The notes beneath the pieces were generated by a model, which did no database searches, was not told where the DNA came from, and saw only the letters and a list, made by a program, of their open reading frames with translations. From contig NZ_QBDT01000001.1 in the NCBI RefSeq assembly GCF_004124325.1, positions 1,302,001 to 1,366,000 on the forward strand: a stretch of 64,000 bases of DNA. The letters are read 5' to 3'. Origin of the DNA: Streptomyces sp. L2 (lineage in GTDB: Bacteria > Actinomycetota > Actinomycetes > Streptomycetales > Streptomycetaceae). Positions 1 to 26,646 of the stretch are shown piece after piece. Each line of letters starts with the position of its first letter. Position 1 is the stretch's first letter. The position numbers were made by a program, and so were the translations under genes.

Positions 1-630
1 GCGATGCTGCGGGACATGTTCGACTACGTCCGGCAGCTGGCCGTATACAAACGACAGAATCCCGCCGACGACATCCTGACGACACTCGCCCACGACCCGG
101 AACTCGCCGAGGCCGAGCTGGAGATGTTCTTCTTCCTGCTCACCGTCGCGGGCAACGACACCGTGCGCAGCGCCGCCCCCGGCGGACTGCTGGCCCTCGC
201 CGAGCATCCGGAGGCCTACGCGTCGCTCCGCGCGGGGAAGGCGGGCCTGCCGTCGGCGGTCGACGAACTGCTGCGCTGGCACCCGCCCGTGCTGACGTTC
301 CGCCGGACCGCCGCGCGGGACACCGAGCTGGCGGGACGGCGGATCCGGGCCGGGGACAAGGTCGTCGTCTTCCACGCCTCCGCCAACCGGGACGAACGCG
401 CCTTCGCCGAGCCCGGCCGGCTCGGCCTGGACCGCTCCCCCAATCCACACGTGTCCTTCGGTGACGGCCCGCACGTGTGCCTGGGCGCGCACTTCGCCCG
501 GCTCCAACTGCGCCTGCTGTACGAGGAGACACTCACCGCGCTGCCGGAGCTGCGGCCGGCCAGACCTCCCGGGCGGCTGGTGTCGAACTTCATCAACGGC
601 ATCAAGTCGCTGCCGATGCGGGTCCTCTGA
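1..630 (+). CDS. Cytochrome P450, C-terminal half (5' end outside window)
   Basis: Haem-thiolate monooxygenase; the reading frame is already open at base 1, so only the last ~209 residues of a ~400-residue protein are present. Visible are the I-helix motif AGNDT (oxygen activation), the ExxR motif as ELLR, and the haem-binding loop FGDGPHVCLG whose Cys ligates the iron. The end (VSNFINGIKSLP) resembles the CYP124/125/142 type that oxidises terpenoid or sterol chains, but this is a weak resemblance from memory and the substrate is unknown. It converges on the regulator next door with one base between the stop codons, so any shared terminator would have to lie inside the genes. Confidence 0.9.
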   Translation, partial: AMLRDMFDYVRQLAVYKRQNPADDILTTLAHDPELAEAELEMFFFLLTVAGNDTVRSAAPGGLLALAEHPEAYASLRAGKAGLPSAVDELLRWHPPVLTFRRTAARDTELAGRRIRAGDKVVVFHASANRDERAFAEPGRLGLDRSPNPHVSFGDGPHVCLGAHFARLQLRLLYEETLTALPELRPARPPGRLVSNFINGIKSLPMRVL

Positions 631-631
631 G

Positions 632-1279
632 TCAGACGGTTCTGATCTCCCGTTCCAGCTGCGAGGCGAGGGTGAGATAGCGGGGGCGGCGGTGCACCGG
701 GACCAGGCCGCGGATCATCAGGTGCCACATCTCGGCCACCCTGCGCGGCAGCCGCCCGACGGGTTCGAGGGAGCGGCCGGCGACCCGGGTGCCGATGAAG
801 AAGCAGACCAGGGAGTGGGCGACGACGCCGACGTCGAGGTCGCTGTGCACGTCGGACTCGCGGACGGCGGCGGTGAACTTGCGGGTGGCGAACTCCAGCC
901 ACTCGGTGAAGGGGTGGCGCAGCGGGGGCCGCATCGCGATGTCCGCGGTGGCGAGCCGGAGTCCGGCGCGCGGGACGGGGTCCGCGACGGCCAGCCGGAC
1001 GATCCCGAACGTGGTCCGGATCAGCGCCTCCAGGGCGGAGCAGCCGCGGCTCTCGACGTCGGTGACCATCTTGCGGGCGGCCTCGGCCTGGAGTTCCAGG
1101 ATGGCGTGGGCCAGGTCCTCCTTGGCGGCGAAGTGGAAGTACAGCGCGCCCTTGGTGACCTTCGCGTGTTCGACGATGTCGCTCAGACTGGTGGACTCGT
1201 AGCCGCGCCGGTCGAACAGGTCGGCGGCGGCCCTGATGATCGTTGCGCGGGTCTGCTCGGCACGTAACTGCCTCGCCAT
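632..1279 (-). CDS. cprB: TetR-family gamma-butyrolactone receptor, CprB/ArpA/ScbR type
   Basis: DNA-binding repressor of the gamma-butyrolactone receptor family, 215 residues, the usual family length. The N-terminal helix-turn-helix (MARQLRAEQTRATII, then VTKGALYFHFAAKEDLAHAIL) is close to CprB and ScbR as I remember them, and the ligand-pocket Trp is kept in FTEWLEF. The start is set at the ATG of MARQLRAEQ, where family homology begins; upstream in-frame ATGs would add 22 unmatched residues. In S. coelicolor CprB affects antibiotic production and sporulation. A CprB-type operator half-site lies 27 bases upstream, which suggests autoregulation. The symbol rests on sequence resemblance, the operator and gene order; ScbR-like paralogues cannot be excluded. 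Confidence 0.8.
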   Translation of the reverse strand: MARQLRAEQTRATIIRAAADLFDRRGYESTSLSDIVEHAKVTKGALYFHFAAKEDLAHAILELQAEAARKMVTDVESRGCSALEALIRTTFGIVRLAVADPVPRAGLRLATADIAMRPPLRHPFTEWLEFATRKFTAAVRESDVHSDLDVGVVAHSLVCFFIGTRVAGRSLEPVGRLPRRVAEMWHLMIRGLVPVHRRPRYLTLASQLEREIRTV

Positions 1280-1662
1280 CGAAAAGACCCCTTCTCGCGA
1301 CATGAACATACGGGACATCAGGTGCGTTTCACTCGCCCCGCACAACGATAACTCACGTGTGGATCACGAAAGTCGGGGGTACGACCCACCGCTCGGACCA
1401 CGTCGGCCGGTCCGGCCCGCGGCGGCCACCGGCCGCACGGGGCACGGAGTGCCGCCGCGCCGGTGATCACCACCCTACGAGCCTCGTGGACCGTCCTCAA
1501 CGGCGCCTCCGCCGACCCCGCGGGGGAGGGTGCCACCTCGGCCAACCGGGCCGGAACCGCGCCCGGTCCGGCCGGAGCCCGCTCCTGGTGAACACGGGCG
1601 GCGTGGGCGCCGTACTGGAAGCGGCAGACCCCGTTCCCGTGCCCGCCGAGGAGATGTCCCGG
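1280..1662. other. Intergenic region between divergent cprB-like gene and LPMO gene
   Basis: 383 bases without a supported gene, holding the promoters of the receptor (leftward) and the LPMO (rightward). The receptor-proximal end carries the operator-like sequence described separately. Open frames cross it on both strands but have no ribosome-binding site and match no family; I see no further repeats or hairpins of note. Confidence 0.5.
1306..1328. promoter_or_regulatory. Candidate CprB/gamma-butyrolactone receptor operator
   Basis: The first 11 bases, ACATACGGGAC, equal the first half of the CprB binding consensus as I remember it from in vitro selection work. The opposite half here is degenerate (AGGTGCGTTTC, reverse complement GAAACGCACCT), giving an imperfect inverted repeat. 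It lies 27 bases before the receptor start codon, where an autoregulatory site would be expected. Confidence 0.55.
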
Positions 1663-2589
1663 ATGACTCGGACGACCGCCCGCCTGAGCGTCACGGTGGC
1701 CGCAGCCGCGGCTCCGCTCCTGCTCCTGCCGTGGGCGGCGGGGTCCGCCCAGGCCCACGGCGCCCCCACGGACCCGGTGAGCCGGGTGTACGCCTGCTCC
1801 CCCGAGGGCGACGCCGCCGCCCGCCGTTCGGCGGCCTGCCGCGCGGCGGTCGCGGCGAACGGGGCTCCGTTCACCGCCTGGGACAACCTGCGCGTGGCGG
1901 GCGTGAACGGCCGCGACCGGCAGGTGATCCCGGACGGCAGGCTGTGCAGCGGGAACCTGCCGGCCTACCGGGGGCTCGATCTGGCCCGTACGGACTGGCC
2001 GGCGACCCGGCTGACCCCGGGCGCCCGGCTGACGATGACGTACGCCTCGACGATCGCCCACTCCGGTACGTTCCGCCTCTACCTCACCCGGCCCGGCTAC
2101 GACCCGGCGAAGCCGCTGAGGTGGTCCGACCTGCCCGCGCGGCCGCTCGCGACGGTCACGGACCCGCCGCTGACGAACGGGGCGTACCACATCACGGCCA
2201 CCCTGCCGAAGGACCGGACGGGGCGTCAGATGCTGTATACGGTATGGCAGAACAGTAGTACACCGGACACCTACTACTCGTGTTGCGACGTGGTGTTCCC
2301 CAAGGCGGGCGAGGGGGCGACGGCGGCGGGCACCCCGGCGGCCCGGTCCACGACCCCGGCGGCCCCGTCGGCCGGGCGTGCTACGGCGGCGGCCGGGAAG
2401 CCCGTGTCGGGCGCCGCGGCCCCGCCTTCCGCGAAGGGGGCCGCGCATTCCCCCGCCGGCAGCACGCCGGTCGCCGGGGCCACCCGCTCCGGATCGGGGC
2501 CGGCGGCGCCGGCGATCGCGGGCGGCGCCGCCGCGGTGCTGGTGCTCGCCGGGGGCGCCGCCCTCGCTCTGCGCCTGCGTCGACGCTGA
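1663..2589 (+). CDS. Secreted AA10 lytic polysaccharide monooxygenase with C-terminal membrane anchor
   Basis: Copper enzyme that oxidatively cleaves chitin or cellulose outside the cell; 308 residues. A signal peptide ends AQA before the mature N-terminal HGAPTDP; this His is the first histidine-brace ligand. The second His is in TIAHSGTF, aligned with the CBP21 brace His, and the axial position falls on Tyr in PDTYYSC where CBP21 has Phe. The catalytic domain is followed by a Ser/Ala/Pro-rich linker and a hydrophobic helix ending RLRRR, so the enzyme is probably membrane-tethered. Of two close ATGs the second is chosen because GAGGAG sits 9 bases before it. It diverges from the receptor gene, whose operator could influence it. 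Confidence 0.85.
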   Translation: MTRTTARLSVTVAAAAAPLLLLPWAAGSAQAHGAPTDPVSRVYACSPEGDAAARRSAACRAAVAANGAPFTAWDNLRVAGVNGRDRQVIPDGRLCSGNLPAYRGLDLARTDWPATRLTPGARLTMTYASTIAHSGTFRLYLTRPGYDPAKPLRWSDLPARPLATVTDPPLTNGAYHITATLPKDRTGRQMLYTVWQNSSTPDTYYSCCDVVFPKAGEGATAAGTPAARSTTPAAPSAGRATAAAGKPVSGAAAPPSAKGAAHSPAGSTPVAGATRSGSGPAAPAIAGGAAAVLVLAGGAALALRLRRR

Positions 2590-2607
2590 ACGCTGTTGCC
2601 CTGTACG

Positions 2608-4530
<1,923 letters not shown>

Positions 4531-4534
4531 TCCG

Positions 4535-4954
4535 ATGCCGGACCGTCCACGACAGGGACCAAGGCCCGCCTTCCGCGGATGGCGGGCCCGCCGGCCGTTC
4601 TGGGGCGGGCTGCTGCTCGCCCTGGGCGGGGGCGAGATCCTGCTGACCGAGAAGGCGTCACTGAAGGTCGTCCTGCACATCGGCATGCAGGGCCTGGCCG
4701 GCTATCTGCTGCCGGGGCTGATGATGCTGCTGGGGCTGCTGATCCTGTTCAACCCGGCCCAGCGGCTCTTCTACTCCATCACCGGCGTCCTGCTCTCCCT
4801 GGGCACCTGGCTCACCTCCAACCTGGGCGGCTTCCTCGTCGGCCTGCTCCTCGGCGTCATCGGCAGCTGCCTCGCCTTCGGCTGGCTCCCGGACCAGGAA
4901 CCCCGGGTGAGCCGCCGCAAACGCCGTAAGGAGGCACGGGCGGCGGGCGTCTGA
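4535..4954 (+). CDS. DUF6114 family integral membrane protein
   Basis: 139 residues with about four hydrophobic helices (from FWGGLLLALGGGEILL through LLGVIGSCLAFGWL) and a basic C-terminal tail (RRKRRKEAR) that should face the cytoplasm. It begins 4 bases after the DUF6230 stop codon, so the two are almost certainly co-translated. DUF6114/DUF6230 pairs are of unknown function; the arrangement suggests a small membrane complex with an exported partner domain. Confidence 0.75.
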   Translation: MPDRPRQGPRPAFRGWRARRPFWGGLLLALGGGEILLTEKASLKVVLHIGMQGLAGYLLPGLMMLLGLLILFNPAQRLFYSITGVLLSLGTWLTSNLGGFLVGLLLGVIGSCLAFGWLPDQEPRVSRRKRRKEARAAGV

Positions 4955-5131
4955 CCCACGCCGCCGGGGCTTGTAACCCACCCCGTCGGGCGCGTCAAGT
5001 CCCGAGCTGTCGGAACGTGACCCTGTCGCGGGCCGCGGGCCTACTTGAAGTGCGGGCTTCACCGGAGACACCGGAACGAACGAAGCCCGGACGGCACGGC
5101 ACAGTGCCGCACACTTCAGGAGGAGCACATC

Positions 5132-17558: not shown

Positions 17559-20500
17559 CTACGGCAGGTCGTCCGTCCGCAGCACCAGCAGCTCCTGGTG
17601 GCCGGGCCGCTCCACGTCCGCGAGCCGCACCGCCATCCGCTCCACCATCCCCTCGAACAGGGTGCGCGCGTCCCGCCCGTTGGCGGGTTCCGAGGCGTCG
17701 GCCCGCGCCCGGAACCGGGCGAGGAGCAGTTCGTCGACACCGGCGTCCAGCTCGAATCCGTGCCGGCGCACCAGGTGCCGTACGATCCGCACCAGTTCGT
17801 CCGGGGTGTACGGCCGGAAGGACACGGTCCGGGAGAACCGGGACGCCAGCCCCGGGTTGGCGGCGAGGAACTCGTCCATCTCCGCCGGATAGCCGGCCGC
17901 GATCACCACGACGTCGTCCCGGTGGTCCTCCATCAGCTTGGTCAGCTCGTCGATGGCCTCCTGCCCGAGGTCGTGGTTCACGCCGAAGCGCCGGGCGAGG
18001 CTGTAGGCCTCGTCGATGAAGAGGACCCCGCCGCGGGCGCTGTCGAAGACGGCGCGGGTCTTCAGCGCGGTCGCGCCCAGGTACTGGCCGACCAGGTCGC
18101 TGCGGTGCGCCTCGACGAGCCTGCCGTCCGCCAGCAGGCCCAGATCGGCGAGGATGCGGCCGTAGAGGCGGCCCACGGTGGTCTTCCCGGTGCCGGGCGG
18201 ACCGGAGAACACCAGGTGGCGGCTGCCGGGCGGCGCGGGCAGCCCGGCGTCGCGGCGCAGGCCGGTCAGCCGGAGCAGGTCCACCTGCGTGCGGACCTGG
18301 TGCTTGGCCTCGTCCAGCCCGATCAGCGCGTCGAGTTCGGCGCGCGGGTCCGCGGATCCGTCGTCCTCCGGGGGCGGCGACGGGTCGGTGGTGACGGCGG
18401 TACGGCGCAGGGTGCCCTCGCCGGTGACCGGCGCGCCGTGGCTGCCGGTGATCCGGCTGTCGGTGATACGGCCGCGGGTGGTGGCGTCGGTGTGCAGTCC
18501 GTCGCGTTCGCTGTCGGTGAGGGCGCTGTCGCGGACGTCGAACTGGCTGTTGTCCTCGGCGAGGAGGCCGTGTCCGCCGGACCCGGTCACGGTCAGCTCC
18601 TCGGCGGTGAGGGAGGCGCTGTCCAGGAGGTGGACGCCGTGCCGCCCGGCCCGTTCCACGGTGCACCGGCGGGCGGTGAGGGAGGCGGTGTCACGGACGA
18701 AAAGACCGTCGGCGACGGTGTCGGTGACCTGGACGTCCCGGGCGGTGAGCCGGGCGGACCCGGTCAGTACGAGTCCGCAGTCGCCCAGGTCCCGCAGCCG
18801 CGCGCCGGTGAGGTCGCCGGCCGAGCCGCTGTCGGAGCCGTACACCCCGTATTTGCACCGCTCGGCGCGCAGTCCGTTGACCTCGACGGTGCCGTTCTTG
18901 CACAGCCGGACCGCCGACTCGGTCAGGGCGCGGGCGTCCAGTCCGGTGACGACGGCGTGCCCGTTCTCCACGAGCACTCCGGTGCGGGCGCCGTCGATCC
19001 GGCAGCCGTCGGCGCGCAGGCTGCCCCGCTGGTCGGCGTGGAGGGCGGTGTTGGACAGGTGGGTGAAGGAGCAGTCGGTCACCCGGCCGACGGCGTCCTC
19101 GGTGACGTGGACGGCGGTGTTGCGGCAGCTGTCGAAGACGCAGTCCGAGAAGGCCGGGTCGGCGCCGCCGGAGATGAGCGCGCCCGCGTTCGCGCCGGTC
19201 ACGCGGGCGCGCGTGACGGTTCCGTGGCCCTGCTCGCGGAAGACGAGGGCGGTGCCGGCGAGGTCCTGGAACCGGCAGTCGCGCACCTCGGCGGCGGCGT
19301 GCTCCGTGACGAGGACGCCCTGGCCGCCGGTGCCGGTGAACACGCAGTCGGTGACGCGGGCGTGGCTGCCGGCGCCGGTGACGTGGACGGCGGCGGCCCG
19401 GGTGCCGGTGAAGGAGCATCCGATCGCCTCGGCGCGGCCGCCTTCGGTGACGCGGAGGGCGTCCTCGGCGGCCTCCGAGAACCGGGTGCCGACGAAGGCC
19501 GCACGGCCTCCACCGCTCAACGTGACCGCTCCCACGGCGAGTTCGCCGCCGGTCACGGTGACCTCGGCGTCCTTTCCGGCGGTCAGCGCGGCGGCCCCGG
19601 GCCGTCCTTCGAGCCGGCAGTCGCGCAGGGCGAGCCGTCCGGCACCGGCGCCGACGGCCGCCTTGCCGCCCGCGATGACGGTCAGACCGGTCAGCACGGC
19701 GCTGCCGGTGGCGGTGACGGTGGTCTCCCCGGACCGCTCGACCACCACCGTGCCCGGCCCGTGGACCGCGCGGATCTCCACATCGCCCTTGAGGACGAGG
19801 GGATCGCGGTACCGGCCGGGCTCGACCAGCACGCACACGGGTCCCTCGCCGCCGTGCGCGCGCAGCGCCGCCGCGATCGTGCGGTGCCCCCGGGTCGCGG
19901 AGCGGCCGACCCGCAGTACCCGCACCTCCCCGGCGGCGGCCGTACGGGACGCGGGTGGCGGGGCCGGCGGGTCCGGGGGCGGTGGTACGGCGCCGGGGGC
20001 GGGGGCGGCCCAGCGGCGCACGCCCTCGCTGCCCCGGGCCGGGCCGGTGACACGGGCGCCGTACGCGGCGAGGGTGTAGGCGAGTTGCTCGGGGTGCACC
20101 GACAGGCCGTGCGGTTCGCCGACGGGGCCCGCCAGCACGGGCACGACCTCCAGCGGCCCGCCGGGGACCGCCCGGAAGCAGCCCCGCAGCGGTTCCACGA
20201 CCGGCGGCGGGTACGGCGGCGCCGTCGGCACGCGCTGGACGGTGCCGTCGGCCGCCGCCTGGAAGCCGGAGGCCGGCGCGGCGTCCGGCCGGTGGACGAG
20301 CAGGGTCCAGCGGGGCCTCAGCTCCCCCGCCGGGCCGGGCGGCGAACCGATCTCCAGGGAGGCCGCCTCGGCCCAGGTCAGCGCGCGTTCGTCGGCGCCA
20401 ATACGCAGCCGCAGGCCCTCGTCGTCCAGGTACAGCGCGCAGCGGCGGCCGAGCAGCCGGTCGAGTGCGGTGAGCGCCGGCAGGACGACGGCGGGGGCGG

Positions 20501-21365
20501 CGAGCGCGCTGCCGACGTACACCCAGTGCAGGCCGGCGCCCGGCCGGACGCCGCTGTGCCACAGGTAGCCCCAGCAGCACAGCAGCCAGACGGCGACGGA
20601 CAGCCCCCGGGCGCGGCGGGCGGCCCGGGCCGCGAACGGGGACCGCAGCCGGCCCGGGACCCGGTGGCCGGACTCCCCGTGCGGGGGCAGTCCGGTACGG
20701 CGCCAGCGGGGGCCGGCGTGGGTGCCGAGCGCGGTGTCCAGGGCGGCCGGGTCGGCGTCCAGCAGGCGCAGGTCGATGGTGAGGCCCTGCCAGTGCGGGT
20801 CCCAACGGGGCGTCAGCCGGAACGGGGACAGGGCGAGGGAGAGCGGGGCGTGCCGGGGCCGGCGCCGGCCGTCCGGGGCCACGGTGCGGACCAGCAACTG
20901 ATCCGGGAACCGGTGGTCCGTGCGCGACAGGCGCCGGCCGGCCACTGGGACCACGCAGATCACGTCGATCTCCGCCCAGTGCAGCGTGGTCCGGCGCAGC
21001 GGGCCGCGCCACTGGAGGCCGGACGCGTCGACGACGAGCGCGAACGGCAGCAGGGAGGTCAGCAGGAGCCGCAGGCCGGCCAGCGCCAGGACGGCCGCAC
21101 CGGCGACGCTCACGGCGAGCACGGGCCACGGCGAGTGCGCCGCGCGGGCGCCGTCGGCGGACAGGCAGCAGACCAGCGCGGCGACGCCGGAAGCGGACGC
21201 GGCCCACAGCCGGTTCTGCACGGTCTGCAGATCGCGGTGGAAGGTGGCGCGGGGCGTACGGGGACGTGGCGGCGCGCCCGCAGTACGTGCGGCGTCTGTC
21301 GTCCCTGCGGTGTCCGCCGTCCCTGCGGTGTCCGTCGGGTTCCCGGTGCCGAGCCGGACGTCCAC
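17559..21365 (-). CDS. Membrane-anchored beta-helix/AAA+ (CbbX/SpoVK-like) ATPase
   Basis: 1268 residues. The N-terminal ~430 residues contain two pairs of hydrophobic helices (about 55-110 and 260-310), each followed by a region resembling bacterial PH-like domains. A Pro-rich linker leads to a long right-handed parallel beta-helix (about 480-990) built of ~22-residue turns with patterns such as ALRVTEGGRAEAIGC. The C-terminus is an AAA+ module: Walker A GPPGTGKTT near 1055, Walker B VLFIDEA, Arg finger in ASRFSRT, closest to CbbX, SpoVK and EccA. It starts with GTG only 51 bases from the divergent gene block that ends in a CHAT protease. Function unknown; a remodelling ATPase on a surface scaffold is an inference. 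Confidence 0.85.
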   Translation of the reverse strand: MDVRLGTGNPTDTAGTADTAGTTDAARTAGAPPRPRTPRATFHRDLQTVQNRLWAASASGVAALVCCLSADGARAAHSPWPVLAVSVAGAAVLALAGLRLLLTSLLPFALVVDASGLQWRGPLRRTTLHWAEIDVICVVPVAGRRLSRTDHRFPDQLLVRTVAPDGRRRPRHAPLSLALSPFRLTPRWDPHWQGLTIDLRLLDADPAALDTALGTHAGPRWRRTGLPPHGESGHRVPGRLRSPFAARAARRARGLSVAVWLLCCWGYLWHSGVRPGAGLHWVYVGSALAAPAVVLPALTALDRLLGRRCALYLDDEGLRLRIGADERALTWAEAASLEIGSPPGPAGELRPRWTLLVHRPDAAPASGFQAAADGTVQRVPTAPPYPPPVVEPLRGCFRAVPGGPLEVVPVLAGPVGEPHGLSVHPEQLAYTLAAYGARVTGPARGSEGVRRWAAPAPGAVPPPPDPPAPPPASRTAAAGEVRVLRVGRSATRGHRTIAAALRAHGGEGPVCVLVEPGRYRDPLVLKGDVEIRAVHGPGTVVVERSGETTVTATGSAVLTGLTVIAGGKAAVGAGAGRLALRDCRLEGRPGAAALTAGKDAEVTVTGGELAVGAVTLSGGGRAAFVGTRFSEAAEDALRVTEGGRAEAIGCSFTGTRAAAVHVTGAGSHARVTDCVFTGTGGQGVLVTEHAAAEVRDCRFQDLAGTALVFREQGHGTVTRARVTGANAGALISGGADPAFSDCVFDSCRNTAVHVTEDAVGRVTDCSFTHLSNTALHADQRGSLRADGCRIDGARTGVLVENGHAVVTGLDARALTESAVRLCKNGTVEVNGLRAERCKYGVYGSDSGSAGDLTGARLRDLGDCGLVLTGSARLTARDVQVTDTVADGLFVRDTASLTARRCTVERAGRHGVHLLDSASLTAEELTVTGSGGHGLLAEDNSQFDVRDSALTDSERDGLHTDATTRGRITDSRITGSHGAPVTGEGTLRRTAVTTDPSPPPEDDGSADPRAELDALIGLDEAKHQVRTQVDLLRLTGLRRDAGLPAPPGSRHLVFSGPPGTGKTTVGRLYGRILADLGLLADGRLVEAHRSDLVGQYLGATALKTRAVFDSARGGVLFIDEAYSLARRFGVNHDLGQEAIDELTKLMEDHRDDVVVIAAGYPAEMDEFLAANPGLASRFSRTVSFRPYTPDELVRIVRHLVRRHGFELDAGVDELLLARFRARADASEPANGRDARTLFEGMVERMAVRLADVERPGHQELLVLRTDDLP

Positions 21366-21416
21366 GCGTACCCCCGTCCGCTGTTCCTGGGATCAAGCGT
21401 AGAGGATCCGACTACC
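21366..21416. promoter_or_regulatory. Divergent promoter of the beta-helix/AAA and CHAT gene blocks
   Basis: 51 bases separate two divergent start codons; AGAGGA at 21401-21406 serves the rightward gene. The short distance makes shared control of both blocks likely. Confidence 0.5.
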
Positions 21417-21836
21417 ATGGGTGATGTGTCGTCATCCGAGGTCCGAGATACACAACTTGCCTTGCTCTGTGCCCAGTTGCCCCGACTGCGGCAGATCAGC
21501 CGGGGGCCGGTGGGGGCGGCGAGACGCCCGCTGATCGACCGTGCGCTGCGTGCCGCGCGGGCGGGTGAGCCGGTCGAGGAGTATCTGGCCGAACTGGGCC
21601 TGCTGAACCGGCCTCCCGTTCCGGAGCCGGAGCTGGACGGGAGGTGGATCCCGGCCGGCGGACTGCCCCGGACGACCCTGCCGACGGCTGTCGCGGACGA
21701 CGGTCCGCACGCGGTGTCCGGTGAGCACGTCTGCCCGCGCGGGGCGTGCTCCCGGCGGGAGCGGCGGGGGGCTGGCGAACAGCTGCCGGTGTGCGAGGTG
21801 TTCGACGTGGCGCTGCGCTTCGAAGCCGAGAGCTGA
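21417..21836 (+). CDS. Small Cys-containing protein of a CHAT locus, unknown function
   Basis: 139 residues, no named family recognised. The N-terminal half is helical (LALLCAQLPRLRQISRG, LIDRALRAARAGEPVEEYLAEL). The C-terminal half has a basic Cys/His cluster, EHVCPRGACSRRERR, then LPVCEVFDVALRFE, suggesting a small zinc ribbon or treble-clef-like fold. It is followed after 10 bases by a membrane protein and then the TPR/CHAT protease, and starts 51 bases from the divergent beta-helix/AAA gene. An adaptor or substrate of the protease is possible, but only context supports this. Confidence 0.6.
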   Translation: MGDVSSSEVRDTQLALLCAQLPRLRQISRGPVGAARRPLIDRALRAARAGEPVEEYLAELGLLNRPPVPEPELDGRWIPAGGLPRTTLPTAVADDGPHAVSGEHVCPRGACSRRERRGAGEQLPVCEVFDVALRFEAES

Positions 21837-21846
21837 GCGGGTCGGC

Positions 21847-22725
21847 ATGCTGACGGGGCTCGCCACGGACGTCGGCCGGAAGCTGGCCGAGCGCTGGGCG
21901 GCGGCCGTGGTGCTGCCGGGCCTGGTGTTCACCGCGCTGGCGGCGGCCGGTATGACGCTGGGCCAGCGGCACTGGTCGGACCTGGATTTGCTGCGGCACC
22001 GGCTGCGGGCGCTGACCGCCGACGGCTCCGGGTCCACGCGTACGGCGGTGCTGCTGCTCGGGGTACTGGCCGCGTCCTTCGCCGCGGGCCTGCTGGCGGA
22101 CGCGCTGACCGGGCCGTACGAGCGGGCCCTGATGGGGAGCTGGCCCGGGCCGCTGGGCCGTGTGGCGGGCGCGCTCACCGAGCGGCGGCGCCGGTTGTGG
22201 GACGCCCGTGACCGCGCCTGCCGCGAGGCGCGGGAGGCCCGTGAGCTGGGGCCGTTGGAGGCCGCGCGCAACGATGTCGCGCTGGTCCGTCCGCAGTGCC
22301 CGACCTGGGCCGGGGACCGGCTGCGCGCCCCGGCCGCGCGGATCCGGCTGGAGTACCGGCTGGAACTGGCCGACGCGTGGCCGCGTTTGTGGCTGCTGCT
22401 GCCCGACTCCACGCGGCAGCCGCTGATCGAGTCACGGCAGCGGCTGGACGAGGCGATGCGGCTGGGTGGGTGGGCGGTGCTGTATCTGCTGCTGGGCGCG
22501 GTGTGGTGGCCGGGCGCGGTCGCCGGGGCGGGCGCTGCGCTGGTCGCCTGGCGGCGGGGGCGGGAACGGGCGGAGGAGTACGCGGAGTTGGTGGAGTCCG
22601 CGGTGGATGTCCACTTGCCGGAGCTGTACGAGCGCTTCGACGGGGAGAGCCGGCCGGTGCGGGCCGGGCTCGGGCCCGCCGTCACCGAGCGCTTTCGGAA
22701 GGGGGCGGGGGCGCGGCGCGGATGA
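21847..22725 (+). CDS. Integral membrane protein of the CHAT locus
   Basis: 292 residues. Two N-terminal transmembrane helices (AAAVVLPGLVFTALAAAGM and TAVLLLGVLAASFAAGLLA) are followed by a ~130-residue Arg/Ala/Glu-rich cytosolic segment, then two more helices (WAVLYLLLGAVWWPGAVAG region) and a charged tail (PELYERFDGES). No family is recognised. The ATG lies 10 bases after the preceding stop codon, so both genes belong to one transcript. Its topology would fit a membrane anchor or receptor for the locus; the mechanism is unknown. Confidence 0.65.
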   Translation: MLTGLATDVGRKLAERWAAAVVLPGLVFTALAAAGMTLGQRHWSDLDLLRHRLRALTADGSGSTRTAVLLLGVLAASFAAGLLADALTGPYERALMGSWPGPLGRVAGALTERRRRLWDARDRACREAREARELGPLEAARNDVALVRPQCPTWAGDRLRAPAARIRLEYRLELADAWPRLWLLLPDSTRQPLIESRQRLDEAMRLGGWAVLYLLLGAVWWPGAVAGAGAALVAWRRGRERAEEYAELVESAVDVHLPELYERFDGESRPVRAGLGPAVTERFRKGAGARRG

Positions 22726-22727
22726 GG

Positions 22728-22797
22728 GGTGGCTGACTGCCGGTTCACTGGTGCTGGTGCGTGGTGGCTGACCGCCGGTTCACTGGTGCGGGTACGC
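22728..22797 (+). repeat. 35-bp tandem direct repeat, two copies plus partial third
   Basis: Units starting GGTGGCTGAC at 22728 and 22763, with a third partial unit at 22798, repeat every 35 bases and contain CCGGTTCACTGGTGC. The array lies between the membrane-protein stop codon and the CHAT gene, just before two class A hairpin repeats. Confidence 0.8.
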
Positions 22798-22808
22798 GGT
22801 GGCTGGGC

Positions 22809-22901
22809 GCGCAGTTCCCCGCGCCCCTGGGGAGTTGTGGTGCGGCTGGTTTTCTGGGTGAGCGGAGTTGGGCTCGGGCGATGCGCAGTTCCCCGCGCCC
22901 C
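22809..22901. repeat. Two class A intergenic repeats
   Basis: The 19-mer GCGCAGTTCCCCGCGCCCC occurs at 22809-22827 and again at 22883-22901, each followed by a partly palindromic G-rich arm. The same element recurs at 26661, 38550, 53844, 53947 and (one mismatch) 54051. Confidence 0.85.
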
Positions 22902-22932
22902 TTGCGGAGTTGCTGTGCGGGGAGTTTGAGAG

Positions 22933-25900
22933 GTGAGCGGGGTGGCTGGGGAAGGTGGTGTGGGGTGGATGGGTGAGCGGGAGCGGTTGTTGGGGGTTGT
23001 GCGGGGGCGGGTGGACGGGGTGGGGGGTGGGGACGGGGCCGCGGCGCTGCATACCGAGGAGGCTCGGGGGGAGATCGAGGCTCTGGTGGGTTACTTGGTG
23101 GGACGGGCGCCGGACGGGGCCTACGGTGTCGATCAGGAGGTGGCGTACACGCTCGGTGTGGCGTGGCTGCTGCGGGCCGACGACCGGCGCGAGGCGCCGA
23201 CGGCCGAACAGGAGGCCCGGCAGGGGCTGTTGCTGCTCGCGCCGTTCCACTGCCACCTGCCCGGTACGCCGGACGTGCTGCCGCCGCCGCTGCGGGCCGC
23301 GCTCGACGCCTGGCTGGGCCCCGGCGGGGGACGGCCCGACGATCCGGCGGCGATCGTCCAGGAACACGCGGCGTCCCTGGTCAACGTGTCGCTGCTCCTG
23401 CTGGAGCTGGGCGCCGGGCGGGGCCGCCCCGAGCCGCTGGAGGCCGCGGCCACGCTGACCCGCCAGGCGATGCCGTACCTGTCGCCCGAGGGGCACGACC
23501 GGGCGCTGGCCCTGTGCAACCTGGGGTACGCGCTGCTCCTGGGCAGCGTGCACGTGCCGGACGGGGAGCCGCGGCTCTCCGAGGCCGTCGACGTGCTGCG
23601 CACCGCCCTCGACGGCACTCCCCCGGACCACCCCAACCGCGCGCGCTGCGCCCACGGGCTCGGCGTGGCGCTGCTCGCGTGGGCCGGCGCGCGTGAGGAC
23701 CGTACGCCGCTGCCCGAGGCGATCGACCTGCTGCGTGCGGCGGCCCGGGGCGGGGATCCGGCCGACGACAACGTGGCCCAGACGTACTCCGACCTCGGGC
23801 AGGCGCTCACCGCGTACGCCGTCACCGCCGACGACGGCGAGGAGGTCGGCCCCGAGGTGCGCGAGGAGGCGGTCACGGCGCTGCGCCGCTCCCTGGATCT
23901 CACCGGGGACGGGGACACCGAGGCGCTGCGCGAGCGCCTGGACCGGCTGGCGGGCGCCGCGCTGATCGGCGTGCACGACGTCGACCGGACCCCGGCCGCC
24001 GAGCGGGCCCGGGAGGCCGTCGAGGCGTTGCGGCGGCTGCTCGGCCTCACCCCCGTGGGCGATCCGGCACGCGTGGACGTCCTGCTGCGGCTGGCGGCGA
24101 GTCTGATCACCGCCCAGGAGCCGCAGGAGGCCATCGACCTGCTGGCGGACGCCGGCCCGGTCTTCGCCGGGGACGCCGAGCGGACCGCGCGGGCGGAGGC
24201 GCTGCTGAGCCGCGCGGCCGTCCTGAAGGGGGAGCTGGCGTCCCGTTCGGACCTCACACCCGGGCAGCGGGAGGACTGGGAGGCGATCGACGCGTTCCTG
24301 CGGCCCGTGCTCACCGGTGAAGGCGGCGGCGACCACCCCATCGCCGCCGTGATGGCCCTGCTCGGCATGGGCCCGCAGGAGGGCGGCAGCCGCAGTCACG
24401 AGCTGATGGAGTTCGGCAGCCTCGTCCTCGGCTATCCCGAACAGGTCTCCCTGGAGGAGGTGTACGGCAAGGGCCTGGAGATGCTGGCGCGGCGCATCGG
24501 CCGGCTGCCCGAGGAGAAACGCGGGAACGCTCTCGCCAGGCTCCTGCAAGGCGGCGACGAGCCGGCCGACCCGGTGCCGCAGGGACCGGCCGACCTCACC
24601 GGCGTCGAGGAACTCCTCGGCGTGCACGAGCGGTTGATGGCCGGCCTCGCACCGGACACCCGTGAGTACCGGCTCCTGAAGAGCGGCCGGTCCATGCTGA
24701 CCATGCTGATGGTCATGCACGAGTCGATGGACGAGACGCAGGACCAGCGGGTCCGTCTCGGCAGGATGCGCGAGTCGCTGCCGCTGCTGCGTGAGATGTT
24801 CGAGGAACTCCCCAACAGCATGGAGGAGTTGGGCATCAGCCCGGAACTGTTCGCCGGGCACACCGCGCTGATCTTCGCCCAGGAGTCGCCGTTCGACCAG
24901 TTGCAGGCGCTGGAGGAGGGCGTCCGCGCGGCCCGGCGCACCCTGGACCGGCTCCAGCCGGGTTCACCGGAGTACGACGGTTCCCGCACGGCCCTGGCCA
25001 TCTCCCTGTTCAGCCGGCACCAACTGTGGTCCGAGGAGGCGGACTTCACCGAGGCCGAGGCCATCGCCCGCGAGCTGACCGCGGCCGGGGAGCCCGATCT
25101 GCGCACGGTCATGCTGCTGGCGCGCTGGACGTCGGCCGTGCAGCACCGGGTCCAGCGCGGCCGGCTCCTCGGCGGCGGGCCGGCCGGCGCCGGCCGGTCC
25201 CCCAGCCTGGTCACCCGGCTGGCCTCCGAGGGTGCCGCGAAGGCGCTCGACGAGGACGACCCGGTGGAGGCCCTGGAAACCCTGGAGGACGGCCGGGCGC
25301 ACCTGCTCTCCGCCGCGCTGAACGCCCGCCGCGAGCTGGGCGAACTGCACGGCGCCGACGCCGCTCTGCACGCCCGGCTGCGCTCGGCGCTGGACCGGAT
25401 CCGGGAGCTGCGCCGGGGTGCGGAGCCGGGCCACTGGCCCACCCCGGAGGAGATGGCGGAGCAGCGCGCGGTCACCGAGGACGCGGCCCGGCTGATCACC
25501 GAACTCCAGCGGCGGCCGGGGTTCCAGCGGTTCCTGACCCCGCTGCCGCTCGGCCTGGACGACCTGCGGCCGGCCGCCGCGGAGGGGCCGGTGGTCAGCG
25601 TCAACATGCACCCCCGCCGCTGCGACGCGCTGGTCCTGGACGGGAGCGGGCGGCTGCGGACGGTACGGCTGCCCCGGCTGTACGCCTCGGACCTGGTGGC
25701 GCAGGCCGAGTCGTTCCGGCTGGCGGTTCAGGTGCTGACGGCGGGGCCGTACGACCCGCTGTTCGAGGAGGCGCGAGAGATCTTCACGGGCACCCTGGGC
25801 TGGCTGTGGGACGTGCTGGCCGAACCGGTCCTGGACGCCCTGGAGTTGACCGGCCCGCCGGAGCCCGGGGCGCCCTGGCCGCGGCTGTGGTGGTCGCCGT

Positions 25901-26646
25901 CCGGGGTGCTCAACGCCTTCCCGCTGCACGCGGCCGGTCATCACGGCACCGGGACCGGCACGGCCGTACTGGACCGGGTGGCGTCGTCCTACACGCCGAC
26001 GCTGCGTGCCCTGCTGTTCAGCCGGGCGCGGCGGCGCGCGGAGCCCGGCCGGCGCGGGGTGCTGGCGGTGGCCATGCCCGAGACGCCGGGGCAGGCTCCG
26101 CTGGCCCGGACCGTGGCCGAGGCCACCGGGGCGGTCGCGGCGGGCGGCGGTGTGCCGCTGATCGGCGCGGCGGCCACGCGCGAGGCGGTGCGTACGGCGG
26201 TGCTGGACGCGGCGGTCGTGCACTTCGCCTGCCACGCCGGCGGTGACCCGGAGGACGCGGCGGACGGGCGGCTGCTGCTCGCCGACGGGGACCTGCGGAT
26301 CGCCGACATCGCCGACCTGCGCCTGGAGGCGGCCGAGCTGGCCTACCTGTCCGCCTGCGGCACGGCCCGGGGCAGCGCGGCCCCGGCCCTGGCCGACGAG
26401 GTCATCCACCTCGCGTCCGCGTTCCAGCTGGCCGGGTACACCCAGTCGGTGGCCACCCTGTGGGAGGTCGGCGACGCGTTCGCCGCGGACGCGGCCGCCG
26501 CCTTCCACCACACCCTGGCCCCGTCCCTCCCGGACCCGGCCCCCCTCCCCGCGGCCCTGGCCCTCCACGAAACGGTCCGCGCCCTGCGCGCGGCGGACCC
26601 GGACCGCCCATGGACCTGGTCAGCCCTGGTCCACGCAGGCGCATGA
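22933..26646 (+). CDS. TPR-like/CHAT-domain cysteine protease
   Basis: 1237 residues. The first ~850 are helical with scattered TPR-like units (for example DRALALCNLGYALLLG, DDNVAQTYSDLGQALTAYA). The C-terminal ~350 form a CHAT (caspase HetF associated with TPRs) domain; the catalytic dyad appears as His1101 in HFACHAGGD and Cys1142 in YLSACGTARG, so the enzyme should be active. CHAT proteases act in bacterial immunity, programmed death and regulated cleavage. The GTG at 22933 is used; an ATG at 22969 (MGERERLLG) is a fair alternative. It is last in a three-gene block divergent from the beta-helix/AAA gene; its substrate is unknown. Confidence 0.88.
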   Translation: MSGVAGEGGVGWMGERERLLGVVRGRVDGVGGGDGAAALHTEEARGEIEALVGYLVGRAPDGAYGVDQEVAYTLGVAWLLRADDRREAPTAEQEARQGLLLLAPFHCHLPGTPDVLPPPLRAALDAWLGPGGGRPDDPAAIVQEHAASLVNVSLLLLELGAGRGRPEPLEAAATLTRQAMPYLSPEGHDRALALCNLGYALLLGSVHVPDGEPRLSEAVDVLRTALDGTPPDHPNRARCAHGLGVALLAWAGAREDRTPLPEAIDLLRAAARGGDPADDNVAQTYSDLGQALTAYAVTADDGEEVGPEVREEAVTALRRSLDLTGDGDTEALRERLDRLAGAALIGVHDVDRTPAAERAREAVEALRRLLGLTPVGDPARVDVLLRLAASLITAQEPQEAIDLLADAGPVFAGDAERTARAEALLSRAAVLKGELASRSDLTPGQREDWEAIDAFLRPVLTGEGGGDHPIAAVMALLGMGPQEGGSRSHELMEFGSLVLGYPEQVSLEEVYGKGLEMLARRIGRLPEEKRGNALARLLQGGDEPADPVPQGPADLTGVEELLGVHERLMAGLAPDTREYRLLKSGRSMLTMLMVMHESMDETQDQRVRLGRMRESLPLLREMFEELPNSMEELGISPELFAGHTALIFAQESPFDQLQALEEGVRAARRTLDRLQPGSPEYDGSRTALAISLFSRHQLWSEEADFTEAEAIARELTAAGEPDLRTVMLLARWTSAVQHRVQRGRLLGGGPAGAGRSPSLVTRLASEGAAKALDEDDPVEALETLEDGRAHLLSAALNARRELGELHGADAALHARLRSALDRIRELRRGAEPGHWPTPEEMAEQRAVTEDAARLITELQRRPGFQRFLTPLPLGLDDLRPAAAEGPVVSVNMHPRRCDALVLDGSGRLRTVRLPRLYASDLVAQAESFRLAVQVLTAGPYDPLFEEAREIFTGTLGWLWDVLAEPVLDALELTGPPEPGAPWPRLWWSPSGVLNAFPLHAAGHHGTGTGTAVLDRVASSYTPTLRALLFSRARRRAEPGRRGVLAVAMPETPGQAPLARTVAEATGAVAAGGGVPLIGAAATREAVRTAVLDAAVVHFACHAGGDPEDAADGRLLLADGDLRIADIADLRLEAAELAYLSACGTARGSAAPALADEVIHLASAFQLAGYTQSVATLWEVGDAFAADAAAAFHHTLAPSLPDPAPLPAALALHETVRALRAADPDRPWTWSALVHAGA

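Follow-up and report, generated by a model that had tools for sequence, protein, structure and literature searches.

The 64-kb stretch of Streptomyces sp. L2 analyzed here (contig NZ_QBDT01000001.1, positions 1,302,001 to 1,366,000, in a genome of 8.07 Mb), which we call the window and whose coordinates are used throughout, contains a cassette of about 5.2 kb with genes for a small cysteine protein, a membrane protein and a TPR-CHAT protein. The three genes are a conserved unit in Actinomycetes, in which the cysteine protein has about 130 and the membrane protein about 300 residues. We tentatively read this cassette, with confidence that stays somewhat short of even, as a conflict (self-sacrifice) switch that is triggered by a protease and acts on the membrane; the adjoining ATPase gene of the window is an optional neighbour. 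In the window, the small gene (21417-21836, plus strand, 139 residues) is followed after 10 bp by the membrane gene (21847-22725, plus strand, 292 residues) and, after a further 207 bp, by the TPR-CHAT gene (22933-26646, plus strand, 1237 residues). The start of the last gene is ambiguous, being either GTG at 22933 or ATG at 22969, the latter from a codon-usage caller. An earlier sequence-only reading of the window had described these three genes and the ATPase gene as a candidate system, and its four open reading frames were borne out at the positions that it gave.

Relatives of the membrane protein were found in 56 of 199 Streptomyces genomes in a search with the protein itself, and in 38 of 345 genomes, representing 16 of 126 genera, in a profile search that covered one class, Actinomycetes. 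When species genomes were scanned for close relatives, four loci turned up, all in Streptomyces. Furthermore, a protein search gave 109 homologues, the named sources of which were all actinobacteria (Streptomyces, Nonomuraea, Amycolatopsis, Gandjariella, Micromonospora and Actinomadura). Many of these source organisms are mycelial.

To the four loci of the species-genome scan, 60 and later 40 others were added, and all of these 104 neighbourhoods were picked solely by the match to the membrane protein (loci L008 and L114 are from one genome, which is thus counted twice). A CHAT domain was present within 8 kb of the membrane gene in 84 of the 104 loci, the small gene adjoined the membrane gene on the same strand in 78, and all three genes were present in 70. 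Five of the 20 loci without CHAT (L006, L026, L053, L055 and L103) are at contig ends, and others seem to be true absences; many of the 26 loci without a small-protein match belong to distant members, which the profile may overlook. For the background, 130 CHAT matches were found in 61 Streptomyces genomes (at least one in 48 of the 61, and exactly one in the genome of the window). At this density of about two per genome, simple arithmetic therefore gives an expectation of about 0.4% per locus, that is, per random 17-kb stretch. The linkage of the membrane and CHAT genes is far above chance.

The order of the genes differs between loci. Among 63 loci for which genes were called, the CHAT gene was upstream and divergent in 36, downstream on the same strand in nine (the arrangement in the window), upstream on the same strand in four, and downstream on the opposite strand in one, while ten loci had no called CHAT gene and three had no called membrane gene. 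Since the linkage survived this reordering, it argues for a working relation between the proteins. The distances between membrane proteins and those between CHAT domains were also correlated (Mantel r 0.60 for 75 loci; the largest value of 2000 permutations was 0.14). In 56 of the 75 loci, the three nearest CHAT relatives included the nearest relative of the membrane protein (permutation mean 3.0, largest 15), and the same agreement was found in 20 of the 36 loci without a close relative. Co-evolution and joint inheritance both fit these distance tests, which cannot separate them.

Two observations concern the gene content of single cassettes. Protein P0077, from Streptomyces sp. NPDC047082, joins the end of the CHAT domain and the first half of the membrane protein in one reading frame, and seems to be what a deletion in the cassette left behind. 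In five cassettes (L027, L036, L052, L071 and L074), a protein of 353 to 500 residues, belonging to one sequence cluster, is encoded directly behind the CHAT gene. TPR matches were found for eight of 133 flanking genes, and this cluster may be among those eight.

Proteins encoded by the cassette

The 139- and 292-residue proteins had been noted as unknowns, and neither had a match at E of 0.1 or below in Pfam, NCBIfam or PADLOC; their families likewise had no convincing match among the models of these three collections. The structure predictions that had been suggested for both were made with AlphaFold2. The model of the small protein (mean predicted local distance difference test score, pLDDT, of 71) shows helices in the N-terminal domain and a short beta tail, with a linker of low confidence between them. 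Its C-terminal cysteine tail, CPxxxC ... PxC, resembles a zinc ribbon. In an alignment of 49 small proteins, C106, P107 and C126 were invariant and C111 was kept in 47, and C18 in the helical part was kept in 39, with gaps in six of the remainder. The small protein is predicted to be an adaptor.

The model of the membrane protein is all helical (pLDDT 89; predicted template modelling score 0.81). The protein consists of two N-terminal hydrophobic helices, a conserved and probably cytosolic domain (PTWxGDR ... WPRLWLLLP), a hydrophobic hairpin with a WWP turn and a C-terminal helix, with hydropathy peaks at residues 20-38, 66-84, 200-218 and 214-232 in the A2 alignment. The stretch from PTWxGDR to WPRLWLLLP, ahead of the second hydrophobic hairpin, is the most conserved, and W17 and W178 were invariant in 55 aligned proteins. 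Residues 91-198 are probably cytosolic, because they are basic. In three members (P0076, P0080 and P0086), long, low-complexity inserts rich in Ala, Pro and Thr separate the second membrane helix from the conserved cytosolic domain. We propose that the membrane protein is a membrane-acting effector.

The TPR-CHAT protein has a variable TPR-like part (residues 1-940), the similarity of which to TPR models is weak in Pfam (TPR_19, E 0.016), and a CHAT domain at about residues 954-1236 (PF12770, E 6.2e-50). The putative catalytic dyad, His1101 and Cys1142, was invariant in all 53 aligned CHAT domains and is apparently active, as the sequence-only reading had supposed; that reading was also right in so far as the small, membrane and CHAT genes look like an undescribed unit. 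The dyad motifs align with those of the solved Csx29, but at an E value of 0.73.

The two parts of the TPR-CHAT protein evolve at different rates. The nonsynonymous divergence (dN) of the TPR part exceeded that of the CHAT part in all 27 locus pairs computed out of 57 candidates, although these pairs share loci and are not independent. The ratio of nonsynonymous to synonymous divergence (dN/dS) was 0.52-0.67 for the TPR halves versus 0.17-0.22 for the CHAT domains in three pairs with the window. In comparisons of the window with three close relatives, the small protein had a ratio of 0.30-0.61 and the membrane protein one of 0.26-0.28. Flanking genes gave 0.12-0.47 and the ATPase 0.51, the last from a comparison with Streptomyces bungoensis (L007) alone. 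Against this gene background, the ratio is conspicuous only for the TPR part and, in some comparisons, for the small protein. Since the TPR half evolves fastest, the sequences suggest that sensing is located there.

A 19-base element occurs seven times in the window, at 22809 and 22883 (plus strand), 26661 and 38550 (minus strand), and 53844, 53947 and 54051 (plus strand), when up to one mismatch is allowed, and did not occur in 100 shuffled sequences. Three of the copies flank the CHAT gene. Exact copies among 173 loci were in four pieces of the genome of the window and in L119, as for a repetitive extragenic palindromic (REP)-like repeat.

Possible roles of the cassette

In the conflict switch that we favor, the TPR part would recognize a trigger, and the small protein may bridge the TPR-CHAT and membrane proteins, its conserved cysteines possibly holding a metal or sensing the redox state. 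The released CHAT protease would then cut a partner. In the simplest case this would be the membrane protein, which in turn would disturb the membrane and stop the cell. The membrane-linked protease surveillance proposed in the sequence-only reading may still hold, but with a division of labour other than the one proposed there, in which the ATPase handles a target and the protease executes. Some results weigh against a role in defence: there were few PADLOC matches among the 133 flanking genes and no defence-island signal, and neither a phage copy of the membrane protein nor one on viral contigs was found.

A serious rival, though on balance an unlikely one, reverses the direction of the signal. 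The membrane protein would be a sensor or anchor that feels a disturbance of the membrane and frees the CHAT protease, which then kills or signals through cytosolic targets. The membrane protein is rather conserved, as its dN/dS indicates, like a structural partner, and its non-membrane part is mostly predicted to be cytosolic, with a conserved basic domain. Moreover, Kaur et al. (2020, PMC7159879) interpret the EACC1-caspase pairs of actinobacteria in the same way. However, the TPR half changes fastest, and this points to sensing in that half.

The distribution of the cassette bears on whether it belongs to the ordinary cell machinery. The site between an opuA-like ABC transporter gene and msrB was found in three states. 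It is empty in L176, with a gap of 191 bp (the sole case of opuA directly beside msrB among 16 msrB neighbourhoods); it contains the cassette without the ATPase gene in L008, with one extra gene before msrB; and it contains both the cassette and the ATPase gene in the window and in L007. Furthermore, the membrane protein was found on 14 plasmid records, one of them from Rhodococcus opacus. In each of the four plasmid records inspected, an annotated CHAT gene is within 2 kb of the membrane gene, directly adjacent in three and behind a gene for a 472-residue protein in the fourth. For the small and membrane genes, the plasmid annotations give hypothetical proteins, and one record lacks a complete annotation of the membrane gene. 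Some genomes have several membrane-protein loci.

One could suppose instead that the cassette carries out housekeeping or developmental proteolysis at the membrane of mycelial actinobacteria and has no role in conflict. The lack of a defence-island signal and the exclusively actinobacterial, in many cases mycelial, named sources of the homologues are consistent with such a role. However, the patchy presence even within Streptomyces (56 of 199 genomes), the plasmid copies, the genomes with several loci, the empty site and the fast evolution of the TPR part speak against it, and we regard it as improbable.

The adjoining ATPase gene

The ATPase gene (17559-21365, minus strand, 1268 residues) adjoins the cassette in the window and is not a conserved part of it. 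Its start and that of the small gene are divergent and 51 bp apart, as had been described. The fusion recognized in the sequence-only reading, of a hydrophobic N-terminal region, a right-handed beta-helix and a CbbX/SpoVK-like AAA+ domain, was confirmed by Pfam matches to the beta-helix (PF13229, E 4.6e-33), AAA (E 1.1e-16) and AAA_lid_6, and there are two strongly hydrophobic stretches, at residues 82-100 and 282-300. The nearest NCBIfam models were SpoVK, EccA and CbbX, each under its cut-off. The secretion role that had been considered is unsupported, as EccA (TIGR03922) scored 227 bits against a cut-off of 466.65. The anti-phage ATPase of IetAS was also rejected as a candidate identity (NF042959, 33.2 bits against 510; best PADLOC IetA model, 33.3 bits).

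That the four genes form a single device, in which the ATPase handles a target and CHAT executes, was the central proposal of the sequence-only reading. The closely spaced divergent starts would fit it, as would the ATPase gene of S. bungoensis (L007), the product of which is 72% identical and which lies beside a cassette at the same chromosomal site as in the window. However, L007 is the one locus of the 104, apart from the window itself, with this ATPase beside the cassette (in L087, other AAA domains are near the cassette), and the gene-neighbourhood check, set beforehand as a possible refutation, found ATPase and CHAT homologues almost always apart. Relatives of the beta-helix/AAA part were found in all of 61 Streptomyces genomes, in many of them in multiple copies, most of these matches covering chiefly the AAA end, whereas the N-terminal 460 residues were found in one of 199 Streptomyces genomes, which is that of the window. 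These counts, together with the site without the ATPase in L008, refute the four-part device as a general system, and we hold it to be very improbable. The empty, cassette-only and cassette-with-ATPase states of one site show that the ATPase gene is separable from the cassette; it is an optional neighbour.

Comparison with known systems

CATRA is a ternary conflict system composed of a TPR-CHAT protein, the small protein CATASP, and CATRA-N with an effector. The cassette resembles it in outline, having in actinobacteria a TPR-CHAT protein (with the CHAT match and the weak TPR similarity given above) beside a small protein and a third protein; the small partner in CATRA has about 100 residues. 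The cassette differs in that the third protein is a membrane protein and the small protein has conserved cysteines in its C-terminal tail. We used the models for CATRA-N (PF20269) and CATASP (PF20271) for the comparison. CATASP matched none of 49 small proteins at E values up to 1 and nothing in the genome of the window, and CATRA-N matched none of 55 membrane proteins and none of the four proteins of the window, while a protein of L123 matched PF20269 at 2.9e-22 as a control. A direct profile comparison (hhalign) of the small protein and CATASP gave a probability of 3.6% (E 0.012 for this single comparison). Thus, the cassette is like CATRA in outline, yet it fails the tests of CATRA membership.

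CATASP itself was found by PF20271 in one of 61 Streptomyces genomes and in 23 of 296 genomes of the class, 18 of these above the cut-off, and CHAT was among the nearest genes in 11 of 15 loci with a profile-called CATASP gene. Nineteen CATASP loci contained no relative of the membrane protein among their called genes. Locus L123 of genome G056 encodes a fusion of CATRA-N with a GT4 glycosyltransferase, along with CATASP and TPR-CHAT, in a layout parallel to that of the cassette. In the same locus, positions 210-5098 encode TPR-CHAT, then CATASP, then a 238-residue protein that contains one hydrophobic stretch and has no match in Pfam, and a second pair of CATASP and CHAT with CATRA-N is within the same 20 kb. 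When the small-protein profile was run on 14 proteins of L123, the top match was a CATASP protein, weak at 8.5 bits (E 0.0018). CHAT domains from cassettes, those from CATASP loci and those found free clustered by kind more than under shuffled labels, but each kind fell into several patches; this pattern suggests exchange of the protease among systems. That the cassette is a divergent member of CATRA, as the similar layout, the weak CATASP match in L123 and the failure of the cassette CHAT domains to form a clade apart from CATRA-type CHAT would allow, appears extremely improbable given the absence of CATASP and CATRA-N matches, the low profile probability and the lack of a membrane-protein relative in the CATASP loci. 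By analogy, the membrane protein would stand where CATRA has the effector linked to CATRA-N.

No published description of the cassette was recognized in our literature searches, the reach of which did not include the original CATRA paper. For two families that no model in Pfam, NCBIfam or PADLOC matches convincingly, 70 of the 104 loci show a link to a caspase-like protease that is apparently active. At least two small proteins, with no detectable relation to each other, are recurrent partners of TPR-CHAT genes, and this small-partner slot is worth seeking elsewhere. If the conflict switch that we favor is true, a membrane-effector branch would be added to the CHAT/caspase conflict systems, and the compact cassette would make its function testable in laboratory Streptomyces.

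The pairing of a membrane component with a caspase-superfamily peptidase in actinobacteria is also known from the EACC1-caspase pairs; Kaur et al. (2020, PMC7159879) describe EACC1 as a protein with one membrane helix, the partner of which frequently has an N-terminal caspase followed by variable C-terminal effectors. Judged by this description, the cassette does not have the layout of a single-helix EACC1 5' of an N-terminal caspase: its membrane protein has at least three hydrophobic segments, and its CHAT domain is C-terminal, after TPR-like repeats. Csx29 of Craspase (type III-E CRISPR) shares the TPR-CHAT architecture, and its NCBIfam model (NF041237) gave 31.5 bits against a cut-off of 300. 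Bacterial gasdermin operons have a protease gene beside the gene for a membrane-acting protein, which is the logic proposed here for the cassette; the gasdermin fold is beta-rich, whereas the membrane protein of the cassette is modelled as all helical with hydrophobic segments. A bolder view, to which we give modest credence, is that the cassette represents a new class of prokaryotic caspase-type death switch, spread in part by plasmids among Actinomycetes, in which an executioner that is embedded in the membrane instead of being soluble is gated by TPR-CHAT via a small four-cysteine adaptor; it would then be a transmembrane counterpart of the protease-activated gasdermins that draws on the protease stock of CATRA.

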